DNA from: Clostridia bacterium
GTDB lineage: Bacteria > Bacillota > Peptococcia > DRI-13 > SM3-B62
DNA length: 39,910 nt
NCBI GenBank assembly: GCA_018432615.1
Contig: JAHDSQ010000032.1
Span: forward strand, 1-39,910
Reading direction: 5' to 3'
This document shows positions 30,037 through 39,910 of the stretch, piece by piece. Positions within the stretch are counted from its first letter, which is position 1. Every line of letters starts with the position of its first letter. The position numbers and the translations under genes are program-made. The notes under the pieces are model-generated. The model was not told the DNA's origin and searched no databases. It worked only from the letters and a program-made list of their open reading frames with translations.

Positions 30037-31173
30037 ATGTTTGTGAATATCAAGCAAGATGCTAACAATCTAATAATCCAGTTTCCCTATTCAGAAGAGA
30101 ATGTGAGAAGAATAAAAAGCGTTACCGGAATGAGATGGAATAAGGAAATAAGCTGTTGGGTCGGAATGTATAGTGAACAGCTCCTCGAGAATGTTTGCCA
30201 AGTATTCAAAGACAAAGAAATATTTGCGGACGAAACTATAAAACTAAAGATGGAAAGAATCAAAAAGGAGCAAAAAATAAGTAAAGAGAAAACAAGGATA
30301 ATTAAGATTAAAGAAGGCCTTGTAAATGAACTGAAACTACACGGGTACAGGGGCAAAACAATTAAAGCTTACAGTAATCATATTAATAGATTTCTTACAT
30401 ATACAAACAAAAATGATGATAGTTTTGACAATGAAGTAATTAGAGATTATATATTGTATTTAATAGATGAAAAGAAGGTATCAAATACTTATATCAATCA
30501 GTTTGTCAGTGCTGTGAAATTCTACGGTAAACACATAATAGGCAATGAGGAACTAGTGGACAAGGTGCCGCATTTAAAAAAAGAGAACAGCCTACCATCC
30601 ATCCTGAGCATAAAAGAGATAGGTATTATATTAAATACATTTAAAAATATTAAGCATAAGGCGATATTATCTTTAACATATTCGGCGGGATTGAGGGTTA
30701 GTGAGGTAGTATCACTAACATTAGAAGATATAGATGCGGAAAGACAATTAATACATATTAGAAAAGGGAAAGGAAGTAAGGATCGGTACTCTACGCTCTC
30801 ATATATTAGCTTGGGCATTATAAAAGAATACGTAAAAAAATATCATCCTCAGAAATGGCTTTTCCCCGGAGAAACAGAGGGAAAGCATATTTCAGAAAGA
30901 ACAGTACAAAAGGTTTTTCAAAACGTCGTGGAAAAGGCAGGTATTAAAAAAACAGTAACTGTTCACTCATTACGTCATTCTTTTGCAACGCATCTTCTGG
31001 AAAGCGGTACAGATTTGCGGTATATTCAAGAATTACTGGGTCACAATAGCTCTAAAACTACGGAAATATATACACATGTAAGTAAGAAGGATATAAGCAG
31101 AATACAAAGCCCGCTTGACAGGGCATTTCGCAATTCCAGTATTGACGATAATAACAGTATCGACCAGCTATAA
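30037..31173 (+). CDS. Tyrosine recombinase, integron-integrase-like
   Basis: A 378-aa recombinase that would cut and join cassettes at attI/attC. The catalytic set is complete: R220 (AGLRVSEV), K245, H310 and R313 (HSLRH), H336 (LLGH) and Y345 (IYTHV). The ending RIQSPLD is like the RSPLD of IntI proteins. The stretch between the catalytic lysine and HxxR (about 260-295) is short, and the extra patch of about 20-30 residues that defines IntI is not seen. Residues 1-50 (FPYSEENVRRIKSVTGMRWNKE, in parts) resemble a HARP-like domain, and residues 85-165 form the SAM-like core-binding domain. It points toward the cassettes, unlike most integrons, and has only a weak RBS (GGGATG). Confidence 0.9.
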   Translation: MFVNIKQDANNLIIQFPYSEENVRRIKSVTGMRWNKEISCWVGMYSEQLLENVCQVFKDKEIFADETIKLKMERIKKEQKISKEKTRIIKIKEGLVNELKLHGYRGKTIKAYSNHINRFLTYTNKNDDSFDNEVIRDYILYLIDEKKVSNTYINQFVSAVKFYGKHIIGNEELVDKVPHLKKENSLPSILSIKEIGIILNTFKNIKHKAILSLTYSAGLRVSEVVSLTLEDIDAERQLIHIRKGKGSKDRYSTLSYISLGIIKEYVKKYHPQKWLFPGETEGKHISERTVQKVFQNVVEKAGIKKTVTVHSLRHSFATHLLESGTDLRYIQELLGHNSSKTTEIYTHVSKKDISRIQSPLDRAFRNSSIDDNNSIDQL

Positions 31174-31289
31174 CGAAATTACCCGCAACATGTTCGCAAT
31201 AACTACCGTATTTTCCAGTATATACGCAATGCGGGTAAACACATTTTGTGGGAGATATTGCGAAACATTGCGGATAAAAGTAGTTAAAT
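31174..31289 (+). other. attI-like primary insertion site
   Basis: The 110 bases between the recombinase stop and the first cassette joint (G31283^T31284, core GTTAAAT) hold repeated hexamers. CGCAAT occurs at 31195 and 31225, and its inverse ATTGCG at 31257 and 31267. The pair ACCCGCA (31181) / TGCGGGT (31230) adds a dyad. These may be recombinase binding sites. The cassette-1 boundary is supported by its end at 34204-34221, which complements 16 of the 18 bases that start at 31283. Confidence 0.7.
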
Positions 31290-31387
31290 GAAATTGGTCG
31301 CAAAGACCGCGCCGTCCTGGCGCGGATTAACCAAATATTAATAACTCTTATTTAGAGCATGGTACATTAAAAAGGAGGATATTCCTT

Positions 31388-32722
31388 TTGGACGACATTG
31401 TGCGAAATAAAGAAATTGAATATACCAAGGAAAATGCAAAGATAGAATTCAAAAAAGGAAATTATCCTCTTGCAAAAATTATTCTTGAAACCCTTTGGAA
31501 TAATTCAAACAAGGATGATGCATATTTGCTATATTATTATGGCCAGGTTTTGAGAAAAGAAAAAGAAAGTATCACATTTATTGAAATATGTAGAGGATTA
31601 AATTCCAATAAAAAAATAATGTCAAACAGGTGGATTGCTTCCACCCTGTGTTGGTGTTTGTATGATGCCTATATCAGAAATTACTCTATTGAAGACAAAG
31701 ATGGTTTTAATGATTTTATAAAAAGAGCTGAATACATTGAAAATAATTGTACACAGATGAATGCGGAGGAACATTATAAAACTCCATATGTTCTGACGAT
31801 AAGAAAAGTAGTAAAAGCATATAACGATAAGGCTTCGAGAAAATTTAAGGAGATAATAAAGTGGTTGTCATGTTTAGATCCAGATAAGCTTTCCGAAGAG
31901 GTTTTTAACTTTCAAGATGAAACTGGTAAAGACAGAGAATTAGCTTCACCAAAAGAGTTTTATTATTACAATATGGCTAAAGCTCTAGAAAAAACAGAAA
32001 AATACGAACCCTGCATTGCAATCTGTGAAGCAGCTTTTAAACAAATAAAGAAATTTCATTATAGAAATGATGTATGGCTGAAGGCAAGAATGTTTTATTG
32101 TAAATGTATGCTAGAAGAAGATCTCGAAAGCGCAATTGCGGAATATAAGGCATTGGCATACAAAGAAAATTACTGGTTCATGTATCATAAACTAGCGCTA
32201 ATATGTTGGCGAAATAACAAAGTACCAGAAGCTTTGTTGTATGCAAGTAAGGCATTTATAGGGAGATTTGAACATGAAAAAATGGTAAATCTCATGTTAG
32301 ACACTGCACTACTCTGGCAAGCAACAGGAAATAATGCAAATGCTAAATTGTTCTTTCAAGCGAGTGCTTATTATAGGGAACGACAAGGATGGTCATCTTT
32401 AGAGGAACTTGAATATGCCGTTAGTATTCTTGAAATTGATGTTGAAGAAAAACCAAATATCAGAGAAATAAAGCGAATTTCAAATGATTACATCGATACT
32501 ATTGAAGGAAAGCCAGAAAGATTTAATGGCAAAATTAACAATATACTGCCACACGGTGGGGCAGGGTTTATAAAACCAAAAGATGGTGTTTCGAATGTAT
32601 ATTTTAATATGAATGATGTTGTAGAGAAAAGAGTTTTGAAAAAAGATGATATTGTAGAATATGAAATATCAAAAGGTAAAGATGGGAAAATACGGGCAGT
32701 CAAAATAGCGCAAAGGAGTTGA
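31388..32722 (+). CDS. TPR-like protein with C-terminal cold-shock-like domain
   Basis: A 444-aa protein, the first gene of cassette 1. Residues 10-340 are helical repeats of TPR type (for example AKIEFKKGNYPLAKIILETLW and KALEKTEKYEPCIAICEAAF). The last 70 residues (FNGKINNILPHGGAGFIKPKDG, then VYFNMNDVV and KDDIVEYEISKGKDGKIRAVKI) have the strand order and GFI/VYF nucleic-acid contact motifs of a cold-shock/OB domain, so RNA binding is likely. The start is TTG, with GGAGGA 8 bases upstream. It is followed after 4 bases by an RnlA-like toxin gene, suggesting a third component of that system. Confidence 0.75.
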   Translation: MDDIVRNKEIEYTKENAKIEFKKGNYPLAKIILETLWNNSNKDDAYLLYYYGQVLRKEKESITFIEICRGLNSNKKIMSNRWIASTLCWCLYDAYIRNYSIEDKDGFNDFIKRAEYIENNCTQMNAEEHYKTPYVLTIRKVVKAYNDKASRKFKEIIKWLSCLDPDKLSEEVFNFQDETGKDRELASPKEFYYYNMAKALEKTEKYEPCIAICEAAFKQIKKFHYRNDVWLKARMFYCKCMLEEDLESAIAEYKALAYKENYWFMYHKLALICWRNNKVPEALLYASKAFIGRFEHEKMVNLMLDTALLWQATGNNANAKLFFQASAYYRERQGWSSLEELEYAVSILEIDVEEKPNIREIKRISNDYIDTIEGKPERFNGKINNILPHGGAGFIKPKDGVSNVYFNMNDVVEKRVLKKDDIVEYEISKGKDGKIRAVKIAQRS

Positions 32723-32726
32723 GAAA

Positions 32727-33758
32727 ATGAGTGAGATACATATTAATAAAGATGACATTAAATCAATTGTAGAATCATATGTGAGGGAAAACAGTACATT
32801 TGTTATTAAGTCATTTGTTGATAATGATATTAAAAAAACTTGCTGCTGTTTTATTAATGGGAAAGAATGCAAAATTATTTTTTACATCAAAAAGAATAGT
32901 GTAAGAATTCAGCCGGTGGGAAAAAATATTGATGAATGTAATCTATTAATTAAGTTTATTAAATCAAAAGGATTTTCAACAAACGTTGCGGTGAATCAGT
33001 TTGTTTTTTCATGTGCTAAAGAGATTGTTGATAACCTTGTAAAATATGTCACGGACGAGTGTCATGGTTTATTAACTTACACACAGAATGGAAACCTGTA
33101 CAAATTTACCGGTTATAATGGGGATGTATTAACGTTTACATTCTATCCCCAAACGAATAAAGCTATGATACAAGGTAGACCTTTTCATGCATATAGTATT
33201 GTTGTATCTTATTTGTCTGGGCTATCGGAGTTTTCGTTTGATCAAATTGTTGAGATAAACAATGCTTTTGTTCAAATGAACACTCCGAGTTCTTCAATAA
33301 GAAATGAAATGCAAAGTAAATTAGGAGATGCATATTCTTATTTAGATGAAGCGCTAATAAAATCGATATCTGGATCACTAACCTTACTGAAACAAAAAGC
33401 CATATGTGAGGATTATACCGGCTGTGTTACTGGAGACTTTAAAGCATTAGAAGGGTATTTGAAAAAAATATTATCACAAAAGTATAGTTACAGACTAGAA
33501 AAGAAAAACACATTTTCCATGTTTCATAGGGATAGAAGAAATCCTAGTAGAATAGATTTGGATGTAAACATAACTAAAGATGCAAAAGAAGAATTAAATA
33601 AACTTTATGCTTTGTATTCAAACAAAAGAAATGTCTATTTGCATTCAACTGTGGATCCATCCCAAACAAGAATAATTGAAACATTAAAGGAAGCGCAGGA
33701 CTTATCAGATGAGATATTGCAAACAATAAAATATTCATATCCAACTATTTTTAATTAG
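32727..33758 (+). CDS. rnlA: RnlA-family toxin (HEPN ribonuclease)
   Basis: A 343-aa protein resembling RnlA, the RNase LS toxin that degrades mRNA, for example during phage infection. The N-terminal half holds two related alpha/beta repeats (FINGKECKIIFYIKKNSVRIQP; LTYTQNGNLYKFTGYNGDVLTF, in parts). The C-terminal helical domain ends with the HEPN catalytic motif R301-x4-H306 in NKRNVYLHST. It has an AAAGGAG RBS and is followed 40 bases later by an RnlB-like antitoxin gene. Without a search the RnlA call rests on length, the HEPN motif, the partner and general sequence resemblance. Confidence 0.72.
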   Translation: MSEIHINKDDIKSIVESYVRENSTFVIKSFVDNDIKKTCCCFINGKECKIIFYIKKNSVRIQPVGKNIDECNLLIKFIKSKGFSTNVAVNQFVFSCAKEIVDNLVKYVTDECHGLLTYTQNGNLYKFTGYNGDVLTFTFYPQTNKAMIQGRPFHAYSIVVSYLSGLSEFSFDQIVEINNAFVQMNTPSSSIRNEMQSKLGDAYSYLDEALIKSISGSLTLLKQKAICEDYTGCVTGDFKALEGYLKKILSQKYSYRLEKKNTFSMFHRDRRNPSRIDLDVNITKDAKEELNKLYALYSNKRNVYLHSTVDPSQTRIIETLKEAQDLSDEILQTIKYSYPTIFN

Positions 33759-33798
33759 AAAGAGATATTTTGTTAAATATCTTTGTAAGGAGGATATT

Positions 33799-34161
33799 AT
33801 GCAAGAATACCAAATATTTGAGTTCGATGATGATGTGAATCAAAAATTGGTGTTTATTACAAGTACTGAGGATTTATATTATTTGCAGAATGATATATAC
33901 GACGATCTCTCAAGAACAAACGGCGAAAAATTTACAGTATTAGTAGATTTGTTTTTACGCAACGGATTTTCATTTAATAGATTTGTTTCCTTACATTATA
34001 AAGGGAAAGAGCAGTGTCGATCTTTTATCGTAAATCCAAGAGAGGTTTCAGAGGAAATAAAATCAAAAATAAGAAGCTTTTTAAAAACGAACGTCGAACT
34101 GCTTAACAATAGTGCGTTGACGAAAAGTACAGTAAACTTTGTGACAACAATGGAAAAATAG
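33799..34161 (+). CDS. rnlB: RnlB-family antitoxin
   Basis: A 120-aa acidic protein. The central LVDLFLRNGFSFNRFVSL matches the LL-ANG-x-NRFV core of RnlB antitoxins, which bind and neutralise RnlA. AAGGAGGATATT precedes the ATG. It is the last gene of cassette 1 and ends 54 bases before the attC core. The order toxin then antitoxin is the same as in E. coli rnlAB. Confidence 0.72.
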   Translation: MQEYQIFEFDDDVNQKLVFITSTEDLYYLQNDIYDDLSRTNGEKFTVLVDLFLRNGFSFNRFVSLHYKGKEQCRSFIVNPREVSEEIKSKIRSFLKTNVELLNNSALTKSTVNFVTTMEK

Positions 34162-34214
34162 GATTAAAGGGATCGACATCCTATCGATCTCTGAATATGG
34201 GGACGACCAACTTC

Positions 34215-34410
34215 ACTTAACAACGCATTCCCACAAGGTGCGGATTAGCGGGTTCAACGTGGGCCGAGATTTGTAGAAGGGCTGAAGTAAGCCGCACACA
34301 TCCTTCGGCCCAAGACCGGTAGGACCCGTCTCGCTTTCGCCAAGTACAAGTACTAAGGCTTAAGCTTCGTCTTAGGGCCGAAGAACGTCGGGAATGCAAA
34401 TCCGTTAGCT
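34215..34410 (+). repeat. attC-like site 1 (class A)
   Basis: The left core box ACTTAAC (34215-34221) and right core box GTTAGCT (34404-34410) bracket GCATTCCC (34225) and GGGAATGC (34390). Inside are nested inverted repeats: GTGCGG/CCGCAC, TTCGGCCC/GGGCCGAA and AGTAC/GTACT. The joint is after G34404. The site is close kin to site 7 over its 3' 110 bases. Confidence 0.85.
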
Positions 34411-34520
34411 GAAATCGGACGGTAGCCGTGCCATCCATGGCACGGAAATGTTTTAGCGATAAACTTTATAGTATATAACTTGAGGATAATAATTTTGGAA
34501 ACAAGGATGGTGAATATACT

Positions 34521-35066
34521 ATGTTTAAATGGGTACGAAGTTTTATTGTTTTTCTGGCATTGGTAACCATTGTACTTAGTGGTTGTTCTCAGAAAAGTAA
34601 TGATGTAGAAATTGAAAATCAAAAATTAAGATCTGAGGTGGAGCAACTTCAGTTGAAAGTAGAGGAAAAGAATAAGCAAATCGAACAGTATCATAAAGGA
34701 TATAACCTTCAAATAATGTTGTACTACGATATTAGAAAGTTACTTTCTGCATTAGACAAAGGTGAATTTAGTGAAGATGAAAAAGATTTACTAAATGATA
34801 ATATTGCGGTACAGGAAGAGAGATTGGTAATAATTTCTGAGAACAATACTCATGATTTTCTCTTCTTTGAGAATAAATTAGATTTTGAATGGGTCAGGCT
34901 AATGTATTTTCACTTAGATGATGAAGGAAGATTTGTTATCGGCTATGAGGTTTATGATAAAACTGACAATGAGGAAGAAAAAATCGCAAGTAGAAGAATA
35001 GAAGTTTTTACATTTATTGAAAAGCCTTCAGGGTGGAAATTGGTTGATATCGGAACAGATGTATGA
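34521..35066 (+). CDS. Cassette 2 lipoprotein of unknown function
   Basis: A 181-aa protein with a signal sequence and lipobox VLSGC (C22). A coiled coil follows (about 30-60: ENQKLRSEVEQLQLKVEEKNKQIEQY, in parts), then a small alpha/beta domain ending in EKPSGWKLVDIG, similar to protein-protein DUF4878-like folds. An AAGGATGGTG RBS precedes the ATG. Cassettes often carry exported proteins of unknown role. No enzyme motif is seen. Confidence 0.78.
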   Translation: MFKWVRSFIVFLALVTIVLSGCSQKSNDVEIENQKLRSEVEQLQLKVEEKNKQIEQYHKGYNLQIMLYYDIRKLLSALDKGEFSEDEKDLLNDNIAVQEERLVIISENNTHDFLFFENKLDFEWVRLMYFHLDDEGRFVIGYEVYDKTDNEEEKIASRRIEVFTFIEKPSGWKLVDIGTDV

Positions 35067-35179
35067 AGTATATTTTAGTGAGCTAACAAATGCAACTACG
35101 ACATTTGATCACTATATAGTGGCTTTTGTTTAAGGGGCTGCCGTCCTGGCAGCCTCCAAGTCTGGGGCCGTCCGACATC

Positions 35180-35256
35180 AGCTAACAGTGAATTCCCTAA
35201 ATCTGAGAGATTATGAACGTAATAACCAGACTTCGGGAATTCACGGAACGATAAGC
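35180..35256 (+). repeat. attC-like site 2 (short class)
   Basis: AGCTAAC (35180-35186) is the exact complement of the start of cassette 2 (GTTAGCT). Inner arms are GTGAATTCCC (35188) and GGGAATTCAC (35235). The joint is after G35250, where the next element starts with ATAAGC, giving a GAT rather than a GTT triplet. At 77 bases it is the shortest site in the array. Confidence 0.82.
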
Positions 35257-35428
35257 GGACATCGCTCGCTACGCGAGCTCGTCCGATTATCGCGGCGCGG
35301 GCACTGCCTGGAGATTGGCTCGCTCGCGCAAGCGTTCGCGACACCGCCTATCTCCAGGTTTACAAAATCCTTTCGTCAAGAGTTGCAAGCAACTCTAAGA
35401 CTCAAGTACTTCGTAAACCCGCGCCGCG
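35251..35428 (+). mobile_element. Gene-less 178-bp mini-cassette, copy 1
   Basis: It begins ATAAGCGGAC after G35250 and ends at G35428 before TTATGC. Its start pairs with GTCCGATTATC at 35281-35291, so only about 20 bases lie between the two arms. The remainder is an attC-like site (35285-35434) with arms GCGGCGCGGG (35292) and CCCGCGCCGC (35418), plus internal hairpins, including AGAGTTGC-AA-GCAACTCT (35379-35396). It contains no credible gene. A second copy with six base differences lies at 37056-37233. GC content is far above its neighbours. Confidence 0.8.
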
Positions 35429-35485
35429 TTATGCGCAATTTGCTCTATTAGTATTGCAAAATGAGAATATGAATAGTCAATCCTA

Positions 35486-35497
35486 TGGGGTATAATA
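35486..35497 (+). promoter_or_regulatory. Candidate -10 element of the MazF-type cassette
   Basis: TGGGGTATAATA contains a perfect TATAAT 35 bases before the antitoxin ATG. The same 12-mer stands before the antitoxin of cassette 5. No good -35 box is visible. Confidence 0.45.
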
Positions 35498-35530
35498 TTT
35501 TTAGAAGCAATCTGAGGAAGGTGATTATTA

Positions 35531-35728
35531 ATGAGCTTATCGAAGGATAAACTTCTTGAGTTAATTGAAGACCTACCAGAGAAAGAAATGGGAGAACTGA
35601 TCAATTTCGCAGGATACTTAAGAATGAAAAGAAAAAAGGAAAATTATCAAGAACTACTGAAAGCAAGTGAGAGTAGCTTGGGTTTCTGGAATAATTCAAA
35701 GGATGATGAGGTTTGGAATAATGTTTAA
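35531..35728 (+). CDS. DUF2281-like antitoxin
   Basis: A 65-aa helical protein. The start LSKDKLLELIEDLPEKEMGELINFAGYLRMK is the core of the DUF2281/VapB-like antitoxin group, and its acidic tail would wrap the toxin. AGGAAGGTG precedes the ATG. Its 3' end overlaps the MazF-like toxin gene by 8 bases, as usual for antitoxin-first pairs. A relative is found in cassette 5 with a different toxin. Confidence 0.75.
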   Translation: MSLSKDKLLELIEDLPEKEMGELINFAGYLRMKRKKENYQELLKASESSLGFWNNSKDDEVWNNV

Positions 35729-36062
35729 ACAGGGGGATATCATATTAATTCCAATTCCATTTACAGATTTATCATCAAGTAAGAAAAGACCAGTAATTGT
35801 ACTTTCAAAACATGAATATAACAAAAAAACAAATGATATAGTAGTGGCAGCAATAACCTCAAATTTTGAAGAAAAGCAATACGGCATAGTAATCAAAAAT
35901 GAAGACTTAGCTGAGGGTGACCTTAAGGTAGATTCAATAATAAGGGCTGACAAATTATATACCATGTCTCAGGATATAATCATAAGGAGGTTTGGTCGGG
36001 CGAAAGGTTATATTATTGAAAAAGTAAAAAAACAAATAAGCAGTTTAATTGACGAAAAATAA
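35721..36062 (+). CDS. MazF/PemK-family toxin
   Basis: A 113-aa endoribonuclease-type toxin. FKQGDIILIPIPFTDLSSSKKRPVIVLS shows the first strands and the basic loop of the PemK/MazF fold, followed by IVVAAITSN and DLKVDSIIRADKLYTM, with conserved residues of the active site. I start at ATG 35721, where the family begins, not at an upstream in-frame ATG that would add 18 residues from the antitoxin gene. It probably cleaves mRNA when the antitoxin is lost, stabilising its cassette. Confidence 0.88.
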   Translation: MFKQGDIILIPIPFTDLSSSKKRPVIVLSKHEYNKKTNDIVVAAITSNFEEKQYGIVIKNEDLAEGDLKVDSIIRADKLYTMSQDIIIRRFGRAKGYIIEKVKKQISSLIDEK

Positions 36063-36120
36063 TTAACAGAAATATGTTTTTTATTTTGAATATAAATGAA
36101 TGAATGTTTACGCAAACAAC

Positions 36121-36223
36121 GCATAACAACGGATTGCCGGTTCCGCTATGCTTCACCCAAACCTTTTCGCCAAGTGCAGTCGCACTAGGGCTAAAAGGCT
36201 TCGGCAATCCTGGTACGTTATCT
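36121..36223 (+). repeat. attC-like site 4 (class B)
   Basis: GCATAAC (36121-36127) complements the start of cassette 4 (GTTATGC). Inner arms are GGATTGCC (36131) and GGCAATCC (36203), with the hairpin AGTGC-AGTC-GCACT at 36173-36186. The joint follows G36217, core GTTATCT. Its 90-base interior differs from site 5 at only 4 positions. Confidence 0.87.
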
Positions 36224-36300
36224 GAAATAACGACATATTGGAGCAATATCTTTGTAGTATGGTAAATTACGTAAGAGAAGATAGTAACTGAGTATATACT

Positions 36301-36312
36301 TGGGGTATAATA
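36301..36312 (+). promoter_or_regulatory. Candidate -10 element of the Doc-type cassette
   Basis: TGGGGTATAATA, identical to the element before the cassette 4 antitoxin, lies 34 bases before the ATG. No clear -35 box is seen. Confidence 0.45.
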
Positions 36313-36346
36313 GAAATTAAGTAGCAGTATTAAAGAGGTGTTAAAG

Positions 36347-36520
36347 ATGAGTATGGCTGAAGAATTAATTAAAAGCTTTGAAGAACTTCCGGAAGATAAG
36401 AAAAAGGAAGTGTTTAACTTTATTGAAATTCTTAAAACAAAGACGAGTAAAGAAGTAAACAAGATGATGAATATTATTATTGAAGAAAATAAGTCAGCCT
36501 TGGAGGAGTTAGGGAAATAA
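36347..36520 (+). CDS. DUF2281-like antitoxin paired with Doc
   Basis: A 57-aa protein (MSMAEELIKSFEELPEDKKK, then EVFNFIEILKTK) of the same small antitoxin group as the one in cassette 4. I start at ATG 36347, six bases after AGAGGTG; an ATG three codons upstream lacks an RBS. Its stop overlaps the Doc start by one base. It should bind and block the toxin. Confidence 0.72.
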   Translation: MSMAEELIKSFEELPEDKKKEVFNFIEILKTKTSKEVNKMMNIIIEENKSALEELGK

Positions 36521-36900
36521 TGAAGATGGTTACCTTAAATGATATCCTGTTGTTTCATAAAAAAATAATTGAGGAAACAGGTGGAAGAGAAGGGGTCAGA
36601 GATGTCGGATTGATTGACAGTTCGCTGAATAGAGCTTTTCAAACGTTTAATGAAATCGAATTACATCAGGGTATAATTGAGAAGATATCAGTAATGACAT
36701 TTAGCCTAATAAATAATCATGGATTTGTTGATGGTAACAAAAGAATCGGAATTGCTACGATGTTGCTAATATTAAAGCTAAACAATATTAAGATTGAATA
36801 CACTCAAAATGAACTTGTGAAATTAGGGTTTGGAATAGCTGACGGAACAATTGACGAGAAAGAGATCAAAAACTGGATAGAACATCATTGGGCAAAATAA
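36520..36900 (+). CDS. doc: Doc/Fic-family toxin
   Basis: A 126-aa death-on-curing type toxin. The Fic motif is H67-G-F-V-D-G-N-K-R75 followed by IG, close to HxFxDxNKR of Doc, which phosphorylates EF-Tu and stops translation. The N-terminal GGREGVRDVGLIDSSLNRAF is also typical of the family. Glycine replaces the alanine common in Doc before NKR. It is the second gene of cassette 5, directly coupled to its antitoxin. Confidence 0.9.
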   Translation: MKMVTLNDILLFHKKIIEETGGREGVRDVGLIDSSLNRAFQTFNEIELHQGIIEKISVMTFSLINNHGFVDGNKRIGIATMLLILKLNNIKIEYTQNELVKLGFGIADGTIDEKEIKNWIEHHWAK

Positions 36901-36958
36901 GGCAGTGTGTTTAGATGCCCTTTTTTATTGTGCTAAAGCAGAAAACTGTCGTTACTTC

Positions 36959-37061
36959 AGATAACAACGGATTGCCAGTTTCGCTACGCTTCACCCAAAC
37001 CTTTTCGCCAAGTGCAGTCGCACTAGGGCTCAAAGGCTTCGGCAATCCTGGTACGATAAGC
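36959..37061 (+). repeat. attC-like site 5 (class B)
   Basis: AGATAAC (36959-36965) is the exact complement of the start of cassette 5, and the match extends to 17 of 18 bases. Inner arms are GGATTGCC (36969) and GGCAATCC (37041). The joint follows G37055, where mini-cassette copy 2 begins with ATAAGC. Confidence 0.87.
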
Positions 37062-37233
37062 GGACATCGCTCGCCGCGCGAGCTCGTCCGATTATCGCGG
37101 CGCGGGCACTGCCTGGAGATTGGCTCGCTCGCGCAAGCGCTCGCGACATCGCCTATCTCCAGGTTTACAAAATCCTTTCGTCAAGAGTTGCAAGCAACTC
37201 TAAGGCTCAAGCACTTCGTAAACCCGCGCCGCG
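37056..37233 (+). mobile_element. Gene-less 178-bp mini-cassette, copy 2
   Basis: Same length as copy 1 with six substitutions, two of them in the loop region near the start. The left arm GATTATC is at 37090-37096 and the right joint follows G37233 (GTTATGC). It sits behind a different attC (class B rather than the short class), so the same unit has entered two places. No credible gene is present. Confidence 0.82.
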
Positions 37234-37276
37234 TTATGCGAAATTATTGTTTGGAGCGATAGGAGAGAGATTAGAA

Positions 37277-38689
37277 ATGACTTCAAAAATATTATTGGAC
37301 AATGCAACAGTAACAAGTATCCAGAGAGCTCTAGGTTATATAAATGTTCAAAATGATGCAGTTATTGACCTTGAAATAACAAACTTATCCAATTTATGTG
37401 AAGCAGTATTATTTAATGAAGAAATATATATTCCATATGAGTTGTATAAGAGAGATTTTGTTGATGATAGAAAAGATTTATTCTCTCAACTTGGGATTAA
37501 AGAGCTATCTTTAAATACTGAAACAGAACAAGATATAGATAAAATAGCAACTGCTTCTTTTTCAAAATGGTATCTCGATTATAAAGATGACCAATCAGGA
37601 TTATTTAATCAAATACTAAATTTAATGGATCTCTATATGAAGTTTGTTTGGAATTATCGTTCTTCCGAGTATTGGCTAGTTATGAGGGCTTTCCAATCGG
37701 ATGAAGGAAATATATGTTCAGCAAAAATTCCGATATTTGAATCAATGCTAACAGATAAAAATAATGCAATATGGAACTCATTTGAAAAGTTAGGAAGCCA
37801 TGATATCGTTGATTCTATGGGGAGAATACTTGAAGAAAATAAAGTAAAAAATGGATATAAAACAAGGCCAGGTCCTAATAAAATGATGGCTGCATTAGCT
37901 TGGAATATTTATAGATCAATTTATTATAGAATTCTTGCTACATTAAATGATTGTATTTATTATCCTCATTCGCTTAGAGGGATTGGTGCAGTTATTGATT
38001 CGATAACCGTTTCTGATATAACAATTAATGAGGATACTTTAAGTTCATATGGGTTTCCAAAATCAAGTAAATTGTTAACTGAGTCTTTTCAAGAAATTGT
38101 TGAAAAACAAAAGTCTGAATTGTTTGAGGTAGGTGCAATAAAAGGTGGAGCGACCTTTGCTATACCTCCATTATTGGGACACGTTTTATATCAAACAAAA
38201 TATAAAGAAGACTTTTTTGAAGTGCTTCTAAAATTGAAAGAGGATAGTCGGATAGTAGACCTACGTAAAACTTTAAGGGAATTTGAAGAATCTATTAAAA
38301 ATGGAGATTTATCAGGGATAAGGAAACGGAAAGGTGAATTGGATAAGACAAGTCGTTCGGTTAGAAAAGAAATGGGAATAGATGAATCTAGATTGGAATT
38401 AAATCCTTTATCATATATTTCTGGAGGTATGGTTAATAGTGCAGGTATTGGTATACCTATTCCTAAGAGTTTAAACCAAATACAAATTATAGCAAAACCA
38501 TCCGATTGGAGACTATGGTATAGGGAAGTAGCTATAAATTTAAGAAACGTTGCTAGATTGGGAGCGGAATATGATAAGTTAAAGTCTTGGGCTAAATATA
38601 AAGATATAGAAGCTTATAATTGGTATTCCAAAAAAGATTATCCTATGAAATACACTCATACTCTTGATTTTGGTATAAAAGGTCATTAA
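37277..38689 (+). CDS. Cassette 7 protein of unknown function
   Basis: A 470-aa soluble protein with no family that I recognise. It is mainly helical with a few glycine-rich spots (GAIKGGATFAIPPLLGH near 290; SGGMVNSAGIGIPIP near 395) and a charged helix (about 320-370). ATG 37277 is chosen because AGGAGAG lies at proper spacing; the frame extends 30 bases upstream without an RBS. It is the only gene of its cassette. Large unknown proteins in integron cassettes are often defence-related, but nothing in the sequence proves this. Confidence 0.75.
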   Translation: MTSKILLDNATVTSIQRALGYINVQNDAVIDLEITNLSNLCEAVLFNEEIYIPYELYKRDFVDDRKDLFSQLGIKELSLNTETEQDIDKIATASFSKWYLDYKDDQSGLFNQILNLMDLYMKFVWNYRSSEYWLVMRAFQSDEGNICSAKIPIFESMLTDKNNAIWNSFEKLGSHDIVDSMGRILEENKVKNGYKTRPGPNKMMAALAWNIYRSIYYRILATLNDCIYYPHSLRGIGAVIDSITVSDITINEDTLSSYGFPKSSKLLTESFQEIVEKQKSELFEVGAIKGGATFAIPPLLGHVLYQTKYKEDFFEVLLKLKEDSRIVDLRKTLREFEESIKNGDLSGIRKRKGELDKTSRSVRKEMGIDESRLELNPLSYISGGMVNSAGIGIPIPKSLNQIQIIAKPSDWRLWYREVAINLRNVARLGAEYDKLKSWAKYKDIEAYNWYSKKDYPMKYTHTLDFGIKGH

Positions 38690-38699
38690 AAGAAATAAC

Positions 38700-38869
38700 T
38701 TCGAACAACGCATTCCCACAAGGGCGCGTTGGGCAAGGGTTTGGGGTGTGCGCGCCACATCCTTCGGCCCAAGACCGGCAGGACCCGTCTCGCTTTCGCC
38801 AAGTACAAGTACTAAGGCTCAAGCTTCGTCTTAGGGCCGAAGGACGTCGGGAATGCAGGGACGTTAGGC
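38700..38869 (+). repeat. attC-like site 7 (class A)
   Basis: Arms GCATTCCC (38710) and GGGAATGC (38849) and the 3' two-thirds are nearly those of site 1. The inner stem GGCGCG/CGCGCC replaces GTGCGG/CCGCAC of site 1. The right core is GTTAGGC (38863-38869). The left core reads TTCGAAC, which equals the expected TTCGCATAAC with CAT deleted. Confidence 0.83.
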
Positions 38870-38896
38870 GAAACCCGAGGGATAGGAGAGGTAAGA

Positions 38897-39790
38897 ATGT
38901 CAAATGTATTTAGAGATATTATTGAAGATATGCATCGCAAAGAACTAATAGATTTTGATGCCCTTGCTGACTTACAGACGCTTGTTTACCTACCTGCAGA
39001 ATCCCCAACAGAACTAAAAGTTAATGTAGTATCTGCTATCAAGGCTTATAATGGCGGTTATGCTTCAATAGATTATATTAAAAAGCATTATGGTAAAAAA
39101 TGGGGGGATTATCTAAACAAAAAAGAAGGAACAAGTCAGATCAGAGAAATTATCAATGTTACTTTAGTTAAATTGGAAGATATGGAGAAAATTGCTGAAA
39201 TCAATATTCCTGGAAATATTGGATATGTAATCGCAAGAGGTGCGTTATGGAGGTTACAAACTAGTTTTAAAGCGGCATTACATTTATTACGGAATTCCTA
39301 TTATTATGAAACGCTATCAGTAACAAGATTGATATTCGAACAATTAGCTTGGATTTACAAGATATACGAATTTGATACTGCCGAAGAAATATTGAAAATC
39401 TCGCCAACCAAATCAATTGGGAAAATCAAAAATATTTACCCTGAAGCGGGAGCGCTTTATGGTTTTTTAAGTGAGCATGCACATATTTCATCAAATTTGG
39501 TTTCCGACTATATTCATGTTTCAGATAGTTATTCTGATGTCATATTAAAAAGCCCTCAAAATAATGATAAAAGCGCATATATTATTCTTTCGTTGATTGA
39601 TTTATACTGCATTATCATTGAGTTAATATTTTACGATTTTATAGATGATTGTAGTTCTGTATTTTTAGATGAGGAAGGCAAAACGCTATATATTAACGAT
39701 CTCAGGGATTTTAAAGTGAATTATCTAGATAAATATGAAAAAAAGACTATAAAACAACTCGGGCATCGCCTAACAATTAGAGATTTATGA
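38897..39790 (+). CDS. Cassette 8 helical protein of unknown function
   Basis: A 297-aa protein with an AGGAGAGG RBS. It is largely helical; residues 130-215 (LLRNSYYYETLSVTRLIFEQLAWIYKIYE, then YGFLSEHAHIS, in parts) resemble HEPN/DUF5677-like proteins, where a similar H-A-H stretch occurs. The C-terminal 15 residues (GHRLTIRDL) are encoded by the left box of the cassette's own attC. No catalytic motif can be assigned with confidence. Confidence 0.72.
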   Translation: MSNVFRDIIEDMHRKELIDFDALADLQTLVYLPAESPTELKVNVVSAIKAYNGGYASIDYIKKHYGKKWGDYLNKKEGTSQIREIINVTLVKLEDMEKIAEINIPGNIGYVIARGALWRLQTSFKAALHLLRNSYYYETLSVTRLIFEQLAWIYKIYEFDTAEEILKISPTKSIGKIKNIYPEAGALYGFLSEHAHISSNLVSDYIHVSDSYSDVILKSPQNNDKSAYIILSLIDLYCIIIELIFYDFIDDCSSVFLDEEGKTLYINDLRDFKVNYLDKYEKKTIKQLGHRLTIRDL

Positions 39791-39910
39791 TGTTCAAAAG
39801 AGTCAAAACAAAAAGTTCCGGCTCGAAAAAAAGAAACGGAACGTAATAAATAAAACCACAGACAGAACATCATGACTCTCAGGTTGTACTGAACCGTCTG
39901 CAAATCATAT
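39768..39910 (+). repeat. attC-like site 8, right end uncertain or outside window
   Basis: GCCTAAC (39768-39774) is the exact complement of the start of cassette 8 (GTTAGGC), extended to 15 of 17 bases. ATGATGTTC (39787) and GAACATCAT (39865) may be the inner arms, and GTTGTAC at 39883 a possible right core. The right half is not convincing, and the site may end past the window. Confidence 0.55.

Follow-up and report, generated by a model that had tools for sequence, protein, structure and literature searches.

The 39,910 bp of DNA analysed here, which we call the window and which come from a Clostridia-type bacterium, very probably carry a complete integron that belongs to a lineage of its own, referred to below as a 'HARP integron'. 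A recombinase of the IntI/XerA superfamily that lacks the patch of IntI proteins and has a HARP-like N-terminus sits upstream of its own putative attI and of an array of cassettes on the same strand.

Positions 1-29.5 kb of the window are occupied by ordinary chromosomal genes. The recombinase, HARP-Int, is encoded on the + strand by an intact open reading frame of 378 aa at 30037..31173. Its product comprises a HARP-like domain (residues 1-64), a linker helix, a core-binding SAM_4 domain (residues 96-170) and a catalytic domain (residues 194-350), and a Pfam profile search matched it to PF00589 and Phage_int_SAM_4. The catalytic set R220, K245, H310, R313, H336 and Y345 is complete and, family-wide, invariant or nearly so; with its RKHRH-Y residues and PF00589 match the protein classifies as a tyrosine recombinase. 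The only curated NCBI model whose cut-off it passed was NF040815 ('site-specific tyrosine recombinase/integron integrase'; 232.8 against 220), and the IntI model TIGR02249 scored 195 bits, under its cut-off of 265. The protein ends in RIQSPLD, an IntI-like tail that is conserved in the family. An intact homologue with 95% identity is present in a sister species ('Clostridia bacterium isolate SM3-B6.2').

The IntI-specific patch lies between the catalytic lysine and the HxxR motif, and this segment is short in the window protein, with 65 residues from K245 to H310. Among 37 HARP-Ints measured, the distance from the lysine of KGxKDR to HxxR had a median of 65 residues, as compared with 66-68 in two XerA proteins and 106-107 in IntIs; the one outlier, at locus L121, is probably a motif mis-hit. 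The TIGR02249 alignment of the window protein leaps from model position ~176 to ~232, skipping ~177-231. In an AlphaFold model of the protein (pLDDT 86), a helix at residues 256-269 is followed by a loop and by the next conserved helix at 287-301, with no additional helix between the lysine and HxxR. Sequence and model together confirm that the window recombinase lacks the IntI-specific patch. An earlier note on this DNA had described an IntI-like RIQSPLD end and a lysine-HxxR region as short as that of XerC/D. Both descriptions hold, and the checks it proposed, an IntI profile search and structure prediction of residues 255-300, yielded no clear IntI match and no extra helix.

The same note had likened the N-terminus to HARP. 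The first 64 residues (30037..30228, + strand) were predicted to adopt a beta-beta-alpha-beta-beta-alpha-beta fold with a pLDDT of 91.5. The window protein alone did not match the Pfam HARP model (PF07443), but 13 of 20 members of the HARP-Int family did, the best at 4.8e-9, and the top PDB match of the family profile was the SMARCAL1 HARP domain (4o66, E 6.7e-4). In structural comparison, an AF2 model of the N-terminal domain had its best matches in the N-terminal domain of XPB helicases (Z 7.4) and also matched 4o66 (Z 4.3). Fold matches at Z under 8 may reflect a common arrangement and do not by themselves prove a HARP/XPB fold or function, so the HARP claim is carried by the sequence evidence. 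Foldseek with the N-terminal domain model returned nothing at E below 0.001. The family profile, backed by the predicted fold, indicates that the N-terminal ~64 residues are HARP-like; the earlier claim stands for the family, although not by a Pfam match of the window protein itself. Of 87 homologous loci, 82 encode a HARP-like domain. The HARP match is absent from the other five, some of which are truncated, and one of these, L121, nonetheless has an array and an attI. Several Bacteroidota HARP-Ints carry two or three HARP-like copies in tandem, and proteins of 540-576 aa with three tandem repeats before the recombinase are encoded at L104, L106, L108, L110, L111 and L132. HARP and XPB N-terminal domains recognise forked or distorted DNA, and the HARP family also recognises DNA junctions.

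The attC array occupies the recombinase's own + strand from 31283 to the contig end, in agreement with the earlier observation that the recombinase points at the cassettes. Because the window comprises an entire contig, it is the contig's end that truncates the array. A putative attI at 31251..31295 (+) has the position and flanks of its counterparts in relatives and matches R'' of attC 1 at 6/7 positions. Its crossover point, G^TT, falls in GTTAAAT (31283-31289, +) inside GCGAAACATTGCGGATAAAAGTAGTTAAATGAAAT, 109 nt after the integrase stop codon. Eight cassettes follow, all on the + strand. Cassette 1 (31284..34404) encodes a TPR and cold-shock-like protein, an RnlA-type toxin and an RnlB antitoxin, and has attC 1 at 34215..34410 (R'' ACTTAAC, R' GTTAGCT). 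The TPR and cold-shock-domain protein (31388-32722) matches the PADLOC TPR model at 1.9e-39, and together with RnlA/RnlB in the same cassette it is perhaps a defence module. Cassette 2 (34405..35250) carries a gene for a probable lipoprotein (34521-35066); in its attC 2 (35180..35256), R'' AGCTAAC pairs with R' of attC 1, and R' is the degenerate GATAAGC. Cassette 3 (35251..35428; attC 3 at 35285..35434, R'' GATTATC, R' GTTATGC) is gene-less, consists mostly of hairpins and is 94% identical to cassette 6. Cassettes 4 (35429..36217) and 5 (36218..37055) each pair a DUF2281 antitoxin-like gene with a toxin gene, PemK/MazF-like in the former and Fic/Doc in the latter. Their sites, attC 4 (36121..36223; R'' GCATAAC, R' GTTATCT) and attC 5 (36959..37061; R'' AGATAAC, R' again GATAAGC), pair through R'' with R' of attC 3 and attC 4, respectively. 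Cassette 6 (37056..37233) is the gene-less copy of cassette 3, with attC 6 at 37090..37239 (R'' GATTATC, R' GTTATGC). Cassette 7 (37234..38863) encodes a protein of 470-480 aa and cassette 8 (38864..39883) one of 297 aa, both of unknown family. The R'' of attC 7 (38700..38869), TTCGAAC, is mismatched to the preceding R', and its own R' is GTTAGGC; attC 8 (39768..39889; R'' GCCTAAC, pairing with R' of attC 7; own R' GTTGTAC) ends 21 bp before the contig does.

Across the window, R'' and the R' before it are fully complementary at 4 of 8 sites (AGCTAAC/GTTAGCT, GCATAAC/GTTATGC, AGATAAC/GTTATCT and GCCTAAC/GTTAGGC) and agree at 6/7 positions at three more, attI to attC 1 included; pairing is broken at attC 7, and two R' boxes (attC 2 and attC 5) are degenerate. 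Composite 'attC' sites of 255-281 nt at 35180 and 36959 were considered and rejected, as each consists of two attCs flanking a gene-less cassette. The gene-less cassette of ~178 nt (35251-35428 and 37056-37233), nearly all of it strong hairpins, recurs in many spots of the arrays of this genome, contigs C10, C26, C49 and C53 included. An Rfam search of the window found nothing relevant.

Whether attC-like arrays accompany relatives of the recombinase had been raised in the earlier note. Scanning GTDB species genomes with six HARP-Ints gave a first set of 80 loci from many phyla. To be called by our attC detector, a site had to fold stably, have AACA...GTTR at its ends and contain an inner L box; because attC lengths range from 65 to 280 nt, the detector was rule-based, with strand, side, permutation and Xer controls in place of a covariance model. 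With this home-made detector, whose thresholds were set while viewing the window and the first loci, 137 sites were found downstream on the same strand in the first set, as opposed to 11 downstream in antisense and 49 (20+29) upstream in twice the sequence. At least one attC site was present in 44 of the 51 first-set loci having ≥1.5 kb downstream, and none was detected in the remaining 7. Relatives with such arrays come from Bacillota, Bacteroidota, Nitrospirota, archaea and other groups. A second set of 11 further HARP-Int loci, obtained by a search of the window's phylum and kept outside the design of the detector, had 24 sites over 55.5 kb of downstream sequence and a single one over 96.8 kb upstream; 9/11 loci had an attC site, and the other two have <1 kb downstream. 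Nine Xer control loci yielded 1 site in 85.9 kb downstream and no arrays.

R'' was compared with the R' of the previous site in 77 neighbour pairs. Complementarity was perfect (4/4) in 54, with a mean of 3.40 of 4 variable positions; permuted pairings averaged 1.84, none of 2000 being as high as 3.40, and pairing with a site's own R' gave 2.09. Complementarity between R'' of one site and R' of the one before marks cassettes that are exchanged as circles at G^TTRRRY. Neighbour pairing was weaker in the second set (4/13 perfect, against 1/13 for own R'), a drop that probably stems from missed sites. An exact copy of the attI 7-mer predicted from R'' of the first attC was present in 43 of 50 loci, where permutation gave 3.6 on average and 11 at most, and in 8/9 loci of the second set. 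In relatives it lies 41-254 nt after the integrase stop codon, mostly 90-125, and is usually preceded by an inverted repeat of the type TACGACATTGTCGTA; GTTAAAT in the window has the same flank. Pairs of related loci are 82-95% identical up to attI and 60-64% identical just past it, the baseline for unrelated sequence being 60%; judged by these identities, cassette content turns over completely at attI between relatives. Contigs end within 2 kb downstream of the integrase gene in 38/80 loci, compared with 7/80 upstream, an excess expected for repeat arrays. Sequences of attC sites diverge widely between arrays, and the hairpin and outer boxes (R''/L''...L'/R') are kept. As in IntI systems, the folds also retain a spacer that stays unpaired and a bulge of one nucleotide, which in most cases falls on the '' side (13 vs 2), so that something may still need to read the bulge.

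A quick maximum-likelihood tree (SH-aLRT support only), which took in six IntIs, separated an IntI clade (99) from a clade of HARP-Ints plus a HARP-less branch (95), and both from Xer/XerA (95); the window recombinase falls outside the Xer clade. In this tree HARP-Ints form the sister group of IntI, a relation that needs wider sampling because of the small number of IntIs. The HARP-less branch is nested inside the HARP-Int clade and includes recombinases of the window's own genome. On contig C53 (L062:2069-4045), one such recombinase precedes an IS91-type transposase, and its close relatives lie on the array-bearing contigs C10, C26 and C49; on C53, an element of the IS91 type may have taken up the integrase of a HARP integron. 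The HARP-less recombinases of these four contigs were rejected as the true integrase, since those in the tree form one derived branch and that of C53 precedes the transposase and lies on the strand opposite to its array. A search of viral contigs gave no clear HARP-Int phage among the best 80 relatives, where with one exception the matches leave out the residues before ~54. Among 398 genomes sampled evenly from the window's phylum, 18 had a full-length HARP-Int and 2 an IntI, or about nine to one.

Gene anatomy, the same-strand array, the position of attI, R''/R' complementarity, the crossover point and the cassette units were all read from the sequence. The activity that most likely accounts for them is one in which HARP-Int, like IntI, joins and excises circular cassettes at G^TTRRRY. 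The folded, single-stranded attC would serve as substrate, and the HARP domain would supply structure recognition, reading folded attC as the patch does in IntI. A very different arrangement, in which a canonical IntI acts on the array in trans and the HARP recombinase is an unrelated Xer- or phage-type neighbour, would have precedent in CALINs used in trans (PMC9668308), and 5/49 other HARP-Int genomes do carry IntI as well. Copies of the window's attCs occur on several other contigs of its genome. However, that genome (3.16 Mb, 100% completeness) contains no TIGR02249 match over the cut-off, 44/49 other HARP-Int genomes have no IntI, attI lies just 3' of the HARP-Int gene in the 43 of 50 loci described above, across many phyla, and arrays are confined to one side and one strand of HARP-Int; we regard action in trans as highly improbable. 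The earlier note had left a choice between a distinct integron lineage and a true integrase located elsewhere. For the window's genome the latter was rejected, and the former is strongly supported by the same-strand arrays, the dedicated attI, the lack of IntI and the separate clade beside IntI that emerged from the phylogeny it had suggested. We also think it quite unlikely that a relic integrase now stands beside a static array: the mismatch at attC 7 and the two degenerate R' boxes would fit decay, but the open reading frame is intact with all catalytic residues, the sister species has an intact copy, and neighbour pairing is perfect or 6/7 at seven of the window's eight sites.

If HARP-Int is the active integrase, its substrate could still be double-stranded attC, recombined in the manner of Xer. 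A XerA-like catalytic core, scoring over the NF040815 cut-off, and the loss of the patch that IntI uses on extrahelical bases are compatible with this. It nevertheless appears unlikely, given that attC sequences vary widely while the hairpin and outer boxes persist, and that the cassettes retain their orientation, which strand-specific folding would predict. A more serious alternative concerns the HARP domain: within a HARP integron it might contact attI, a partner protein or replication-fork DNA, the patch being dispensable for these attCs. This is a real possibility, if somewhat less than an even one. The IntI-like anatomy retained by the attCs, the array and attI of L121 in spite of its missing HARP match, the inverted repeat at attI, which could itself be bound, and the loss of HARP from the IS91-linked relatives are all consistent with it. 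Against it, the presence of HARP in nearly all loci, with tandem copies in several Bacteroidota, suggests an important role at the substrate, and the nearest folds are HARP and the XPB N-terminal (damage-recognition) domain, at Z values that are no proof of function.

Members of the HARP-Int clade were also found on plasmids. In Acinetobacter baylyi pJAT2044 (L303:2967-4988), tet(X3) lies behind a truncated recombinase of this clade, which is 73% identical to an Arundinibacter HARP-Int and groups with Bacteroidota HARP-Ints at 96% support. An attI-like TATACGCCATTTGGCGTATAGCCACTTGTTATGTGCC immediately precedes tet(X3), and CTAACAAGCAGTTTTGC, which resembles the start of an attC, follows it, with the gene of an IS91-type ISVsa3 nearby; R'' is mismatched to the attI, so the status of tet(X3) as a cassette is likely but not proven. 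In Aeromonas veronii p158496 (L302:2860-4766), blaVEB-3 directly follows a truncated HARP-Int-clade recombinase and an attI-like GATATACGAATATTTTATTCGGATATTAGGGAGTTAGCG, an order suggesting that a HARP integron once had this gene as its first cassette; similar recombinase matches occur on Klebsiella plasmids. The position of both resistance genes directly behind truncated members of the clade gives these recombinases relevance to antibiotic resistance. Bacteroidota plasmids also carry HARP-Ints with attC-like arrays, in Chryseobacterium (L300:8950-18984) and Rufibacter (L301). A 148-nt element with the ends TCCCAACGGCC...GGCCGTTA occurs three times in the former and is perhaps a mobile element that targets attI/attC.

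A broader reading can be proposed: HARP integrons would be a second, ancient and widespread class, with HARP in place of the IntI patch for recognising folded attC. In Bacillota, Bacteroidota and archaea they would account for many of the attC clusters seen as 'integrase-less', and resistance genes that are mobile in the clinic, tet(X3) and blaVEB for instance, would in part derive from those of Bacteroidota. We put the chance that this joint claim holds in full at close to, but under, one half. The patch defines integron integrases and underlies their detection by IntegronFinder. Should cassettes be recombined in its absence, then this definition, the detection software and the taxonomic map of integrons will need revision. 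HARP-Int makes it testable which integrase serves the many CALINs and, since the tree places HARP-Int as sister to IntI, how single-stranded DNA recombination evolved. We found no description of a HARP domain joined to a tyrosine recombinase, or of a HARP integron, in the library of open papers that was searched; HARP-Int appears to be a distinct integrase class within integrons that is undescribed in the literature searched.

Among known systems, IntI (TIGR02249; IntI1, VchIntIA/IntI4) shares with HARP-Int the catalytic core, the SPLD-type C-terminus and the combination of attI, attC and G^TTRRRY cassettes. HARP-Int differs in lacking the patch of ~41 residues, in its additional HARP-like domain, and in that its gene lies on the strand of the cassettes and is followed at the 3' end by attI. 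The reverse-orientation integrons of Treponema and relatives resemble it in that the integrase faces the cassettes, but unlike HARP-Int they carry an IntI with the patch. XerA, XerC and XerD have an equally short K-HxxR segment, and HARP-Int scores above the NF040815 cut-off; it nonetheless falls in a separate clade (95 support), and the Xer control loci are without attC arrays. The SMARCAL1 HARP (PF07443) and XPB N-terminal domains resemble residues 1-64 in sequence profile and fold; they sit on helicases, whereas the HARP-like domain of the window sits on a tyrosine recombinase. In the 'integron-like' subgroup of tyrosine recombinases of Smyshlyaev et al. 2021, the insertion was called essential for integron function and HARP goes unmentioned (PMC8138268). 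IntegronFinder and the archaeal survey make the IntI-specific domain obligatory, and integrons have been reported as extremely rare in the window's phylum (PMC9024848). The CALINs of Bacillota, Bacteroidota and archaea (PMC9024848, PMC9668308) are, like HARP integrons, attC arrays without a recognised IntI; in HARP integrons, however, an integrase is present, one that IntegronFinder would miss.
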